Assembly: GCF_013267195.1 (NCBI RefSeq)
Contig: NZ_CP053941.1
Location: forward strand, 2,418,001-2,482,000
DNA: 64,000 nt
Source: Halorubrum salinarum
GTDB lineage: Archaea > Halobacteriota > Halobacteria > Halobacteriales > Haloferacaceae
Reading direction: 5' to 3'
Positions 6,378-36,026 of the stretch are shown piece by piece; position 1 is the stretch's first letter, and every line of letters begins with the position of its first letter. The position numbers and the translations under genes were made by a program. The notes beneath the pieces are model-generated. The model was given only the letters and a program-made list of their open reading frames with translations, was not told where the DNA came from and ran no database searches.

Positions 6378-7640
6378 ATGATCACGGTCAAGGACACCGT
6401 CCACGACCACATCGAGATCGACGGTGTCGCCGCGGACCTCGTCGACACGCCCGCCGTCCAGCGGCTCCGGCACGTCAAACAGCTCGGCACGGTCCAGCTC
6501 GTCTACCCCTCCGCGAACCACACGCGGTTCGAGCACAGCCTCGGCGTCTACCACCTCGCGAGCCGCGCGCTCGACCACCTCGGGATCGAGGGGACCCGCG
6601 CCGACCGCATCGAGGCGGCGGCGATGCTCCACGACGTGGGGCACGGGCCGTTCAGCCACAACCTCGAGTCGCTCACGCACCGCCGGACCGGGAAATACCA
6701 CGACGACGTCGACGAGCTGCTGGCGACGGGCGCGGTCGGCGACGTGCTGCGCGACCACGACCTCGACCCGGACCGGATCGCCGGGATCGTCGCCGGCGAG
6801 GGGCCGTACGCCGGGCTCGTCTCGGGGGAGCTCGACGTGGACCGGATGGACTACCTCGTGCGCGACGCCTACCACACCGGCGTCCCGTACGGCACCATCG
6901 ACACCGAGCGGTTCGTCCGCGAGCTGACGTTCGTCGAGCGCGACGAGATCGCCGACAACGGGGGGGCCGACCGCGAGGGGCCGGAGCTCGTCTTGGACGA
7001 GGGGAACGTCCAGACCGCCGAGAGCCTGCTTTTGGCCCGGGCGCTGATGAACCCGGTCGTCTACACCCACCACGTCGCGCGCATCTCGAAGGCGATGCTG
7101 CGCCGCGCCGCGAGCGAACTCCTCGACGCGACCGCGACGACGGCCGCCGAGCTGCGCCGGATGGACGACCACGACTTCCTCGTCGCGATCCGCGACTGCC
7201 GCGCGACCGCCGAGCTGTCCCGTCGCTACGACGAGCGCGACCTCTACAAGCTGGCGGTGTGGGCCGAGTACGACGACGTCCCCGACCGCGTCCACGAGGC
7301 GGACCACGCCGCGGAGACCGCCCTCGAACGCGAGATCGCCGCGGAGGCGGGCGTCGCCCGCGACCACGTGATCCTCGACGTGCCCCTGGAGCCGACGATG
7401 CGCGAGTCCACCGCGCGCGTCACCGTCAACGGGGATATCCGACGCCTCGAACGCCAGTCGCCGCTCGTCTCCGCGCTCCGGACCGCGCAGCGCAACCAGT
7501 GGCGCCTCGGCGTGTACGCCCCCGAGCCGGCGACCGACCGCGTCGGCCGCGCGGCCGCGGAGGTGCTCGGCCTCGATCCCGACGGGCTCGTGACCGAGGT
7601 GCGCGGCGCGATGCCGACGACGCTCGACGAGTTCGAGTGA
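6378..7640 (+). CDS. HD-domain phosphohydrolase (dGTPase-like), copy 2
   Basis: 420 residues, a paralogue of the gene at 4586. The motifs are at identical positions: FEHSLGVYH (His53), MLHDVGHGPFSH (His85, Asp86) and ELDVDRMDYLVRDAYHTGVPYGT. The C-terminal block ERDLYKLAVW is also shared. This copy has extra residues around 195 and at the C-terminus (VRGAMPTTLDEFE). Intact metal ligands argue that both copies are active. Expected activity is hydrolysis of a (deoxy)nucleoside phosphate; the family covers several substrates, so no specific one is assigned. Confidence 0.85.
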   Translation: MITVKDTVHDHIEIDGVAADLVDTPAVQRLRHVKQLGTVQLVYPSANHTRFEHSLGVYHLASRALDHLGIEGTRADRIEAAAMLHDVGHGPFSHNLESLTHRRTGKYHDDVDELLATGAVGDVLRDHDLDPDRIAGIVAGEGPYAGLVSGELDVDRMDYLVRDAYHTGVPYGTIDTERFVRELTFVERDEIADNGGADREGPELVLDEGNVQTAESLLLARALMNPVVYTHHVARISKAMLRRAASELLDATATTAAELRRMDDHDFLVAIRDCRATAELSRRYDERDLYKLAVWAEYDDVPDRVHEADHAAETALEREIAAEAGVARDHVILDVPLEPTMRESTARVTVNGDIRRLERQSPLVSALRTAQRNQWRLGVYAPEPATDRVGRAAAEVLGLDPDGLVTEVRGAMPTTLDEFE

Positions 7641-7671
7641 GGTTTATCCGCCCGCCGGGCGACGTGCCGCC

Positions 7672-29520: not shown

Positions 29521-30111
29521 TCACTCCCCGTCGTCGATCAGGTCGCCGAACACGGAGGCCGCGGTGTCCGGCACGTCGAAGTCGTGGTAGTGCTCGCCCT
29601 TCTCGTTCGAGAGGATGTTGAGCGCGGCGGCCGCGCCGTCGCCCGCGGAGATGACCGCCTGCCACTCCTCGGCGCGGGCCATCGCCCCCGTCGCGTAGGC
29701 GCCCTCGACGCTGGTCTCCATCGAGACGCCGACGCTGACGGTGTCGTCGTCGTCGAACTCGCAGCCCAGCTCCTCCGCGAGGTCGCGGTTCGCGCCCGTC
29801 GCGAGGACGACGTAGTCGGCCTCGTACTCGTCCTCCTCGGTCGTCACGGCGAAGCCGTCGTCGGTCGACTCGACGCCGGTGACCTCCTCGCCCTGGTGGC
29901 GGTCGACGCCGAAGTCGTCGACCTGCTGGCGCGCGGTCGCCATGAACTCGCTGCCGCCGACCGAGCCCACGCCGAGGTAGTTGAACAGGTGCGCCTTGTG
30001 CATCCACGTCCCGTCCGTGTCGAAGAGGACGGTGTCGAGGCCGTTCTTGCTCGCGAACAGTCCGGCGCTCAGTCCGGCGGGGCCGCCGCCGACGATTACG
30101 ACATCTGACAT
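29521..30111 (-). CDS. Small FAD/NAD(P)-binding oxidoreductase, thioredoxin-reductase-like
   Basis: 196 residues. N-terminal FAD site VVIVGGGPAGLSAGLFA (about 4-20), a second Rossmann-type segment YVVLATGANRDLAEELG, and SVEGAYATGAM, the second FAD motif. It is about two thirds the length of full TrxR proteins and has no CxxC redox centre, so it needs a partner or has another role. Three in-frame ATGs are close together (30111, 30120 and upstream); homology starts at 30111. Confidence 0.78.
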   Translation of the reverse strand: MSDVVIVGGGPAGLSAGLFASKNGLDTVLFDTDGTWMHKAHLFNYLGVGSVGGSEFMATARQQVDDFGVDRHQGEEVTGVESTDDGFAVTTEEDEYEADYVVLATGANRDLAEELGCEFDDDDTVSVGVSMETSVEGAYATGAMARAEEWQAVISAGDGAAAALNILSNEKGEHYHDFDVPDTAASVFGDLIDDGE

Positions 30112-30222
30112 GGTCGCCATTTCACCGCGCCCGGGCATAAGGGTTGACGGAAGCGGGGATCGACGCGGCGGGCCGAAACGGACCGGTCGCGGCGTCGACG
30201 CGCCGGCGTTGGATTCGGCGAC

Positions 30223-31101
30223 TTACGCCCCGAAATCACCGAGCGAACCGTCGGGAGCGTCGTCATCACCGTCGTCGCCCTCCCGGCCGTCGTCTCGGTC
30301 GCCCTCCCGGCTGTCGTCCGCTCCCTCGCTCTCCCCGCCGGGCACACCCCACGGGTCGTCCGGGTCGACCGGTTCGACGGCGCGGTCGAGTTCGTCGGCG
30401 TCGTACTCCGTGTCCTCGTCGAGGATCATCGCGAGGCGCTGCCAGCGCGCGCTCTGGTCGTCCTCGCCCTCCGGCCCGACGCGGGCGCCGTGGGTCTTGA
30501 AGAAGCGCGTGCCGCGCCCCCGCTTCGACCCCTCGCCCGTGTGACCGTCGAAGACCGCGTCGAACTCGCCCTCCGGTTCGAGGTCGCCGACGGGGAAGTC
30601 GTGGGCCGGCTCCTCGCCGCGCTCGCGGGCCTCGGCGCGGACCTCGGCGACGGCGGAGAAGTAGGCGTCCGCGTTCGACGCCTCCCGGGTCGAGCGGGCG
30701 CGGGCGGCCGCGAGCGCGGCGTGAATCGCACAGAGGCGCCCCTTCCACGCGTCCGGCTCCCAGCGCTCGGTGGCGAGTTCCTCGTAACGGTCGATCAGGA
30801 GCGCGACCTCGTCGCCCGCCCGGAGGTCCTCGACGACGTAGAGGTTGAGGCGGTCCCAGAGGTTCCAGGCGTACCCGGAGCGGGCCAACTCCCAGGCCGC
30901 CCACGCCGCGACCTCCTCGTCCGAGCGCCGGACCGCCTTCTGGAGGAGGCTGGAGACGACGTACCGGCTGTACCCCCCGTCCGTCTCGTTCGGCTCCTTC
31001 TCCTCGCCGAAGTCGTTCTCGCCCGTCGCGTCCGGCGTCGTCTCGGTCTCGAGGCTCCCGTCCGACCCGAACGTCGCCTGTCTGTCGTCGCCGTCGGCCA
31101 T
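30223..31101 (-). CDS. Protein resembling the C-terminal half of RarA/MgsA, without the AAA+ domain
   Basis: 292 residues. From about 42 to 215 it matches the order of motifs in the post-AAA part of RarA/MgsA/WRNIP1: LLQKAVRRSDEEVAAWAAWELARSG, then LNLYVVEDLRAGDEVALLI, WKGRLCAIHAALAAARARSTREASNADAYFSAV, then AHDFPV and GSKRGRGTRFFKTHG. There is no Walker A or B anywhere, so the ATPase is absent and not merely shortened. The ends are acidic and disordered. RarA acts at stalled forks; a free C-terminal domain could tetramerise or bind a partner. Assignment is by motif pattern only. Confidence 0.5.
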   Translation of the reverse strand: MADGDDRQATFGSDGSLETETTPDATGENDFGEEKEPNETDGGYSRYVVSSLLQKAVRRSDEEVAAWAAWELARSGYAWNLWDRLNLYVVEDLRAGDEVALLIDRYEELATERWEPDAWKGRLCAIHAALAAARARSTREASNADAYFSAVAEVRAEARERGEEPAHDFPVGDLEPEGEFDAVFDGHTGEGSKRGRGTRFFKTHGARVGPEGEDDQSARWQRLAMILDEDTEYDADELDRAVEPVDPDDPWGVPGGESEGADDSREGDRDDGREGDDGDDDAPDGSLGDFGA

Positions 31102-31264: not shown

Positions 31265-31338
31265 CCGCCCTTAGCTCAGCCTGGTAGAGCAGTCGACTGT
31301 AGATCGACTTGTCCCCCGTTCAATTCGGGGAGGGCGGA
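31265..31338 (+). tRNA. tRNA-Tyr (anticodon GTA)
   Basis: Cloverleaf: acceptor CCGCCCT pairs with AGGGCGG; D arm GCTC/GAGC; anticodon arm GTCGA-CTGTAGA-TCGAC gives GTA (Tyr); T arm CCCCG-TTCAATT-CGGGG; discriminator A. No intron and no encoded CCA. The 3' end is duplicated at 31445-31465. Confidence 0.93.
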
Positions 31339-31465
31339 CTCGTTTTCCAGTCGATTCGTAGCCGAACGTGGTTCGGCTCGATTCCGTCCCCGCGAGCGAA
31401 GCGAGCGGGGAACAGCGGGGTGACCGCAGCGAGACTCGCGCGTATCAATTCGAGGAGGGCGGACT
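31320..31465 (+). repeat. Direct repeat of the tRNA-Tyr 3' end (att-like)
   Basis: Bases 31320-31340 (TCAATTCGGGGAGGGCGGACT apart from its last base inside the tRNA 3' end) recur at 31445-31465 with one mismatch (G to A). Only about 104 nt lie between, with no gene and with a CCCCGC-GAGCGAAGCGA-GCGGGG hairpin (about 31390-31412). This is the pattern left by site-specific integration and deletion at a tRNA, or by a partial duplication. Confidence 0.6.
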
Positions 31466-34050: not shown

Positions 34051-34133
34051 ACCCATTCCAGTTTCCATGAAGTAACCGACTCGTCCCGTCGGCTGACGCT
34101 ATCCATTTCCGCGTCGCGGCCGAAGCGGCGGTG

Positions 34134-36026
34134 ATGACCGACGACACCGGCGACGACGCCGGCGACGATTCTAGCGAGAACGACGCTGACGACCTCTCGA
34201 TAGACCGCTTCCACGAGGCGCTCGAAGCCGAGGAGCGCCCGGTCGCGACCGCGAGCGAGGTCGCCCGCCGGCTCGGCACGACCCAGGCCGCCGCCCGCGA
34301 CGCGCTGGCCGCGCTCGTCGACCGCGGCGACGTGGACCGGCTGGACGTCGAGGCCGACCCCGTGGTCTTCTACCCGCGCGACTGGGGCGCGCTGGCGAGC
34401 CGCGAGCGCGTCGTAGTCTTCCCGAAGCGCCGCGAGATCGTCGTCGACCGCCCAACGCAGTACACCCGCGCGCGGCTCTCGCAGTTCGCGAACCTCGTCG
34501 ACACCACCGGCACCGAACCGGGAACACGCGGGTACCTCTATCGGGTCCGGCAGGAGGACGTGTGGGCCGCGCCGTTCGACGACGCCGACGGGCTCGTGGG
34601 GGCGCTCCGCTCGGTGCTGCCCCGCCGGTACGACCACCTCGAAGACTGGGTGCGCGACCAGTGGCGGCGCGCGCACCGCTTCCGGCTGTACACCCACGAG
34701 GACGAGTACGTCGTCCTCGAAGCCGCCTCCGAGAACCTGATGGGGAACGTCGCCGACCAGCACCTCGACGACGACCACCTCCGCGCGCCCATCTCGGACA
34801 CGGAGGCGTGGGTCAACGAGGCGGCGGTCGCGGCGGTCAAGCGCGCGCTCTACGACGCCGGCTACCCCGTCGAGGACGACCGCGACCTAGAGACGGGCGA
34901 CCCCGTCGAGATCGAACTCACGACCGACCTCCGCGATTACCAGGAAACGTGGGTGGAGACGTTCCTCGACCGCAAGTCCGGGGTGTACGTCGGGCCGCCG
35001 GGCTCCGGGAAGACCGTCGCCGCGATCGCGACGATCGCCGCGGTCGGGGGCGAGACCCTCATTTTGGTCCCCTCGCGAGAGCTCGCCGAGCAGTGGCGCG
35101 AGGAGCTGCTCGACCACTCCACCGTCGATCCCGCCGACATCGGACTCTACCACGGCGGGACGAAGGACGTCCGCCCCGTGACGATCGCGACCTACCAGAT
35201 CGCCGGGATGGACCGTCACCGCAGCCTCTTCGACTCCCGCGAGTGGGGGCTGATCTGCTTCGACGAGGCGCACCACATCACCGCCCCCGTCTTCTCCCGC
35301 TCGGCCGAGCTACAGGCGAAACACCGGCTCGGGCTCTCGGCGACCCCCGTCAGCGAGACCGGCAGCGAGGAGGAGATATACACCCTGATCGGGCAGCCGA
35401 TCGGCGCCGACTGGGACGCGCTGTTCGAGGCGGGCTTCGTCCAGGAGCCCGAGGTCGAGATCCGTTACGTCCCGTGGCGCGACGAGATGGCCCGCAACGA
35501 GTACGCGGCCGCGGACGGCCGGGAGCGCAGACGCCTCGCCGCCGAGAACCCCGCGAAGATTGAGGAGATCCGCTACCTGCTCGCCGCCCACCGCGACAAG
35601 AAGGCGCTCGTCTTCGTCGAGTACCTCGACCAGGGCGAGGCGATCGCCGACGCGCTCGGCGTCCCCTTCGTCAGCGGCGAGACGCCGCACCACGAGCGCG
35701 CGGAGCTGTTCCGCCGGTTCCGGGCCGAGCGGGAGGATGACGGATCGGGAGGCGACGACGGCGACCTCGCCGCGCTCGTCGTCTCCCGCGTCGGCGACGA
35801 GGGGATCGACCTCCCGAACGCCGAACTCGCGGTCGTCGCGAGCGGGCTCGGGGGGTCCCGGCGACAGGGCTCACAGCGCGCCGGTCGGACGATGCGCCCC
35901 TCCGGCTCCGCGCTCGTCTACGTCCTCGCGACGCGGGGATCGAGCGAGGAGGAGTTCGCCCAGCGGCAGATGCGGCACCTCGGCCGGAAGGGCGTCCGCG
36001 TCCGCGAGACGAACGTCGCCGAGTGA
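34134..36026 (+). CDS. XPB/Rad25-like helicase with N-terminal winged-helix-type domain
   Basis: 630 residues. Residues about 20-80 form a winged-helix-like domain (FHEALEAEERPVATASEVAR RLG region), followed by about 190 residues of unassigned sequence. Helicase core: LRDYQETWVETF, Walker A GPPGSGKTVAA near 287, DEAHH near 380, LGLSATPVSE, VVSRVGDEGIDLPNAELAV, QGSQRAGRTMRPSG. It is a different subgroup from the helicase at 17991, with DEAHH and the extra N-terminus. GTG 34131 is possible; ATG 34134 is used. Probable DNA repair or transcription role. Confidence 0.87.
   Translation: MTDDTGDDAGDDSSENDADDLSIDRFHEALEAEERPVATASEVARRLGTTQAAARDALAALVDRGDVDRLDVEADPVVFYPRDWGALASRERVVVFPKRREIVVDRPTQYTRARLSQFANLVDTTGTEPGTRGYLYRVRQEDVWAAPFDDADGLVGALRSVLPRRYDHLEDWVRDQWRRAHRFRLYTHEDEYVVLEAASENLMGNVADQHLDDDHLRAPISDTEAWVNEAAVAAVKRALYDAGYPVEDDRDLETGDPVEIELTTDLRDYQETWVETFLDRKSGVYVGPPGSGKTVAAIATIAAVGGETLILVPSRELAEQWREELLDHSTVDPADIGLYHGGTKDVRPVTIATYQIAGMDRHRSLFDSREWGLICFDEAHHITAPVFSRSAELQAKHRLGLSATPVSETGSEEEIYTLIGQPIGADWDALFEAGFVQEPEVEIRYVPWRDEMARNEYAAADGRERRRLAAENPAKIEEIRYLLAAHRDKKALVFVEYLDQGEAIADALGVPFVSGETPHHERAELFRRFRAEREDDGSGGDDGDLAALVVSRVGDEGIDLPNAELAVVASGLGGSRRQGSQRAGRTMRPSGSALVYVLATRGSSEEEFAQRQMRHLGRKGVRVRETNVAE

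Follow-up and report, generated by a model that had tools for sequence, protein, structure and literature searches.

The 292-residue protein examined here is almost certainly a RarA C-terminal-like collar that has no ATPase. The collar, a domain already known but here separated from the motor, bears a signature of its own. Its gene is real, conserved and under purifying selection: in comparisons with 11 relatives, dN/dS over residues 40-252 is 0.07-0.22. Coordinates given without a locus handle are positions in the window, i.e. the whole 64,000-nt stretch of Halorubrum salinarum NZ_CP053941.1 that was analysed, in which the gene occupies 30223-31101 (Table 1).

Homology to the RarA C-terminal domain

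The reading frame, on the minus strand, starts with an ATG ending at 31101 and stops with the TAA at 30223-30225, and its translation gives an acidic product (D+E 26%, K+R 11%). Walker A (G....GK[ST]) is absent from the protein and from all 30 haloarchaeal relatives checked, in agreement with the preliminary description, which had noticed no Walker motifs and had also taken the N-terminus to be haloarchaeal, acidic and initiated at a normal ATG rather than left by truncation. These points were upheld: the ATG was confirmed, the N-terminal stretch is acidic, and a motif of the form [QR]x[TS][FL]G or QATFR lies within the first 20 residues of 30/30 haloarchaeal relatives. Since this N-terminus is common to the collar family, the protein is not a truncated or broken RarA. 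At the other end, [GS][ST]LxDF was found in 35/57 haloarchaeal loci and is missing in 22/57; compared with the PIP consensus, the L-x-x-F spacing of GSLGDF might make it PIP-box-like, which is a guess from the sequence.

Table 1. Collar gene, segments of its product and neighbouring genes, in window coordinates.
Feature	Position	Strand	Basis
Stand-alone RarA/MgsA_C-like collar gene	30223..31101	minus	292-aa ORF and translation; relatives; dN/dS
Residues 7-12, RQATFG, short motif in low-confidence acidic stretch at the N-terminus	31066..31083	minus	motif in 30/30 relatives
Residues 40-139, helical core of the collar with homology to first part of RarA C-terminal domain	30685..30984	minus	hhalign and VIA-align
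Residues 140-205, long helix and region aligned with RarA VPxHLR(D/N)A...LGxGxGYxYPHD	30487..30684	minus	hhalign
Residues 185-191, DGHTGEG, DxHTxxG signature of the stand-alone family	30529..30549	minus	motif counts
Residues 206-252, helical C-terminal part kept across the haloarchaeal family	30346..30486	minus	conservation and pLDDT
Residues 285-290, GSLGDF, short motif ending the acidic C-terminal tail	30232..30249	minus	motif in relatives
Small FAD oxidoreductase, adjoins collar gene	29521-30138	minus	
tRNA-Tyr, adjoins collar gene	31265-31339	plus	
XPB/Rad25-like helicase	34131-36026	plus	weak sub-cut-off HTH matches at N-terminus

Scanned alone against Pfam and NCBIfam with hmmscan, the 292-aa protein gave zero matches at E values up to 10, and a phmmer search of the PDB with the single collar sequence returned nothing usable. 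Family profiles behaved differently. An hhalign comparison of 19 sequences (the collar protein, 16 other haloarchaeal and 2 phage sequences) with 11 bacterial RarA proteins, which predates the discovery of the viral-contig relatives, gave an E value of 4.1e-8, and one of 22 sequences including 10 viral-contig relatives with the 11 RarA proteins gave 3.4e-16, spanning collar residues 33-205 and E. coli RarA residues 242-394. Because single scans are empty while family profiles match, the resemblance to RarA is real but lies below the sensitivity of a single sequence. The preliminary description had proposed a RarA/MgsA C-terminal-like domain and had named the lack of a significant profile match to that family as grounds against it. 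For the single sequence compared with PF12002 (MgsA_C) there is indeed no match at E values up to 10; for the family, profiles give significant matches to the C-terminal domains of RarA and the predicted fold agrees, so that the assignment itself stands.

Searched against all PDB sequences, the 22-sequence profile matched six at E values up to 10, with E values from 1.7e-10 to 1.2e-7. The same six are the only PDB sequences matched by E. coli RarA residues 251-447 at E values up to 0.001, and a RarA profile search of the PDB also ranks them first. The collar and the RarA consensus have a common motif order of SALxKSxRGSDxDAA, SEDVG, APKSN and HLRDA...LGxG. A profile of the 24 haloarchaeal members alone retrieved one RarA fragment from the PDB (E 1.3), ranked under three unrelated sequences. 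None of these 24 members, the window protein included, reaches PF12002, for which two Microbacterium phage relatives score 15 bits; the collar protein is thus outside the family as delimited by its curated cut-off of 27 bits. Nor is it a full RarA/MgsA/WRNIP1 protein, since it has the C-terminal collar domain and no AAA+ domain with Walker A, which 11/11 RarA sequences have.

An AlphaFold2 model built from the 24 haloarchaeal sequences had a mean pLDDT of 61.5, and a second one with viral relatives added had a mean of 78.6. In this second model 111 residues reach at least 90, and residues 1-19 fall below 50. In Foldseek searches of the PDB both models matched RarA-type structures first (probability 1.00, all E values above 0.001), and the first 21 rows for the second model all came from RarA-type entries. 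VIA-align gave the best Z, 14.4, to 2r9g, with an rmsd of 1.9 over 101 residues for the first model and 2.8 over 123 for the second, followed by T4 and RFC clamp-loader collars at Z of about 7 to 9.6. The structure comparison called for in the preliminary description therefore places the predicted model closest to RarA C-terminal structures, and, with no Walker A and RarA structures outranking clamp loaders, the protein is not assigned as a clamp-loader subunit (RFC/DnaX). The structural match covers approximately residues 36-160, the stretch to 205 being aligned by sequence only; for residues 140-205 the hhalign alignment reaches E. coli RarA residue 394 and the structural match extends only to about residues 153-174. 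A RarA counterpart of residues 206-252 was not found, and residues 211-250 of this part have pLDDT values of 87-94 per ten-residue block.

The case for homology rests on the sequence profiles, since the Foldseek E values exceed 0.001 and helical models not infrequently reach Z values of 13-14. A helical protein resembling RarA by chance would account for both the empty single-sequence Pfam/NCBIfam scans and a high Z of the kind frequent among helical models. It would not account for a PDB-wide profile search that returns only six RarA C-terminal sequences, with E values down to 1.7e-10 and motifs in register, or for the hhalign E value of 3.4e-16 with RarA, and these two results refute chance resemblance, to which we assign a negligible probability.

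Distribution in haloarchaea and viruses

A search of genome contigs yielded 53 loci with collar relatives. At E values up to 0.001 the gene was found in 64/194 Halobacteria genomes, and the absence of a match from the other 130/194 at this threshold implies that haloarchaea can replicate without the collar protein. Among the genomes listed it occurs in 22/22 of the same genus, its own included; the list of genomes without it is ordered by kinship and starts at 'same family', so no same-genus misses are listed. One locus (L093, G065:C2:1752647-1752718) has a second match, which covers collar residues 1-24 only and lies some 1.4 kb away from the complete gene.

The surroundings of the haloarchaeal collar gene vary and are poorly conserved. 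The FAD oxidoreductase occurs in the flank of 27/57 loci and an XPB-like helicase, on either side, in 14/57; the helicase is absent from the flank of 43/57, some of these being limited by contig ends. Four divergent copies (L086, L087, L089 and L090) stand upstream of large, mutually related proteins. These downstream proteins are 618-740 aa long (L086:919-2781, L089:238-2460 and L090:1606-3462, minus strand); the three that were scanned have no clear Pfam family, and two carry TLGKT near the N-terminus. Tandem fusions of two collars were found in L086 and L087 and also in viral contigs, e.g. L135. By eye, the fusions at L086:4053-5645 and L087:4172-5551 (minus strand) keep the DxH motif only in the second domain.

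With the window protein as query, tblastn found no phage match at E values up to 1, a search of phages at the nucleotide level turned up nothing beyond short stretches of chance-like similarity, and in viral contigs 36 stretches fitted a pattern, of which 0 were confirmed. The window protein nevertheless matches PHROG 16866, a family of 'unknown function', at E 3.6e-7, as do 24/24 haloarchaeal alignment members and the seven viral relatives scanned (E 3.9e-6 to 4.1e-52). All 24 relatives from viral contigs lack Walker A and all 24 have a [DC]xH[TN]-type motif, and of seven further loci from phage records three encode stand-alone collars that have the motif, three encode proteins in which Walker A is present and the motif lacking, and one gave no match. 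By its lack of Walker A and possession of the motif, the window protein belongs to this stand-alone collar family, consisting of PHROG 16866 and the haloarchaeal relatives. Many phage collar proteins bear the name 'AAA-ATPase' in public records. Those of Microbacterium and Arthrobacter phages (L098, L099, L257; matches H12-H31 and H109-H168) are mostly named so, and the KellEzio protein (L257) has no Walker A. In BFVD, predicted structures of giant-virus proteins from pithovirus and orpheovirus (A0A481ZD67, A0A481Z919 and A0A2I2L670, one of them named RarA) match the collar fold with Foldseek E values of 0.0016 to 0.041; only the first two viral rows, one of them a phage 'AAA-ATPase', fall below 0.001.

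The motif [D/C]xH[T/N/S/C]xxG is present in 30/30 haloarchaeal core relatives and in 0/11 RarA proteins. It could be read as part of an active or metal site, with S-x-R (137-139), D185, H187 and G191 making the protein an enzyme or nucleic-acid binder built on a collar; the [D/C]xH pair and the upstream Arg rank among the best conserved positions of haloarchaeal and phage members alike, and the motif is absent from RarA. However, it aligns with the conserved HLR(D/N)A...LGxG of RarA, which suggests a binding or structural role, and no enzyme fold was found, the second half of the protein being barely covered by the structure comparison. We regard an enzyme site as improbable.

In a FastTree phylogeny a node with a support of 1.0 sets the haloarchaeal proteins and that of viral contig L120 apart from phage and RarA sequences; many of the remaining nodes are weak, and the tree does not show which way transfer went. 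Of the viral relatives, L120 has the collar nearest to those of haloarchaea; a type I phosphodiesterase-like gene directly follows it (L120:5881-6663 and 6673-7659, plus strand), and the flank examined contains no glycosyltransferase or ParB gene.

The flanks of the viral collars usually encode a TET-associated-type (TAGT) DNA glycosyltransferase (PF20691), which was found in 21/24 viral loci, the exceptions being L120, L141 (where the collar sits close to the end of a contig of 5.5 kb) and L143. As controls, 80 loci around a related terminase, all of one terminase lineage, were taken, and 75 remained after five shared contigs (L144-L147 and L149) were dropped. One of the 75 has a TAGT glycosyltransferase, and that locus carries a collar too; 29/75 are at least 10 kb long, and 0/29 of these have the enzyme. 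The glycosyltransferase profile had been built from four enzymes (L123, L124, L130 and L099), and without the three training loci that lie in viral contigs the count is 18/21 collar loci. Clustered at 70% identity, the 24 viral collars form 14 groups, 11 of them with the glycosyltransferase. A Pfam scan of 13 neighbouring glycosyltransferases gave 12 matches to PF20691, 7 of them over the cut-off and the weakest at E 0.0067 (L130); that of phage Jayden (L099) had no Pfam match at E values up to 0.01. Two single-protein TAGT scans matched only their own contigs, and three other phage records with a stand-alone collar had no TAGT in the stretch examined (L257, 10.5 kb; L258, 12.3 kb; L100, 4.8 kb). 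ParB was rejected as a specific marker of the collar, 60/75 control loci having it as well.

A TAGT neighbour is thus a frequent but not strict trait of the phage members, and one that the haloarchaeal members do not have. Neither a phage-type TAGT glycosyltransferase nor ParB was found in any of 58 haloarchaeal collar loci, and PF20691 had no match in the whole Halorubrum genome at E values up to 1, so a TAGT link was rejected as the explanation of the haloarchaeal gene at this locus. The same count bears on the idea that the protein derives from a virus or mobile element and was kept by the host, for instance as a decoy or a defence factor against elements whose own DNA replication or modification employs such a collar. 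Stand-alone relatives are common in viruses, divergent haloarchaeal copies stand upstream of large related proteins, and the haloarchaeal proteins group with L120 apart from phages and RarA. Against this, a core copy is present in every same-genus genome among those listed, phage-type partners are lacking at all 58 haloarchaeal loci, and the tree gives no direction of transfer; we consider such an origin of the present function quite unlikely.

RarA in haloarchaea and the putative role of the collar

PF12002 had no match in the whole Halorubrum genome at E values up to 10. E. coli RarA matched 19 places in the genome, every one of them through its AAA part (residues 19-226), and the best of these is the RFC small subunit. 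No full RarA, for which the preliminary description had suggested checking, was therefore detected by either search. Across 194 Halobacteria genomes, PF12002 gave 0/194 matches over the cut-off, and among 148 genomes of the phylum, partly overlapping the 194, none at E values up to 0.001; the same search, applied to 14 control genomes, gave matches in 9 or 10 of them. Two weaker matches occurred among the 194 and were treated as chance, one in G113, where the ORF looks by eye Rieske-like with a helical part, and one in G057. With no RarA detected in the genome or, over the cut-off, in the class, the earlier suggestion that the protein regulates a separate RarA was dropped, because a collar cannot regulate a RarA that is not found in its genome.

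RarA consists of an ATPase and a tetramerization domain (PMC6374455). It works as a tetramer, and members of the RarA family are recruited via SSB or PCNA (PMC8735627). As a whole, the protein is best explained, tentatively and with somewhat less than even confidence, as a stand-alone RarA-type collar working as an ATP-independent adaptor; the adaptor mechanism on its own is plausible but doubtful. The collar would keep the assembling part of RarA, the motor having been lost. Given that tetramerization is the role described for the C-terminal domain of RarA, and that tandem-fused versions of the collar exist, we infer that the protein most likely self-assembles. It may then serve as an ATP-independent scaffold or adaptor at replicating DNA or DNA under repair, where the acidic tails with their short motifs and the DxHT region could bind replisome or repair partners, candidates being PCNA, RFC and RPA, and the collar would thereby tether an activity to replicating or damaged DNA. 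The XPB-like helicase in the flank of 14/57 haloarchaeal loci speaks for such a role; against it count the poor conservation of the neighbourhood, the helicase being absent from the flank of 43/57 loci, the 130/194 genomes in which the gene had no match, and the absence of the terminal motif from 22/57 loci.

Alternatively, the collar might dock on the host clamp loader, joining or competing in the RFC ring and tuning the loading or unloading of PCNA with no ATPase of its own. T4 and RFC collars are its next structural matches after RarA (Z of about 7 to 9.6), and the genome has an RFC small subunit. The collar is, however, clearly closer to RarA than to RFC collars, and some 1.56 Mb separate its gene from that of the RFC small subunit in the Halorubrum genome, so that docking on RFC appears unlikely, and the adaptor reading is preferred.

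A broader proposal would extend the adaptor reading to the viral members. The PF20691 enzyme of T2 and T6 glucosylates already glucosylated cytosines of phage DNA, and gp45, the sliding clamp of T4, is found in co-purification with the T4 alpha-glucosyltransferase, although the share of glucosylation by that enzyme was found not to be set mainly by the gp45 interaction (PMC13216743). By analogy with the T4 alpha-glucosyltransferase-gp45 pair, the widespread [D/C]xHTxxG collar family could serve as an assembly hub that links DNA-acting enzymes with replication: the phage hub would tether the TAGT machinery to newly replicated DNA, and a haloarchaeal lineage might have taken one such hub into its own chromosome, where it would recruit an enzyme of repair or modification. 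This is a speculative extension that we consider rather unlikely.

The ATPase-free RarA collars look like an unrecognised family of DNA-replication helpers, and, judged by titles and abstract openings, no paper among those listed in an open-access library appears to cover it. The molecular function of RarA is described as still unknown (PMC8735627). A conserved collar without a motor separates the role of the collar from that of the ATPase, in an organism with no detected RarA to confuse the results. In addition, a family spanning haloarchaea and phages, and possibly giant viruses, gains a defining motif, and phage genes named 'AAA-ATPase' can be collars without Walker A.

Comparison with known systems

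With the C-terminal domain of RarA/MgsA/WRNIP1 (PF12002) the collar protein has in common the same homologous helical collar and motif order. It differs from these proteins in having no AAA+ domain or Walker A and in possessing DxHTxxG, an extra C-terminal part and acidic tails. The nearest phage families are PHROG 16866, which the protein matches, and PHROG 33349 ('ATPase'); the aligned phage collars are without the QATFG N-terminal tail and most of the C-terminal part, whereas the L120 collar has a tail. Clamp-loader collars come joined to an AAA+ module, and those of T4 and RFC, although similar in fold, are more distant from the haloarchaeal protein than is that of RarA.
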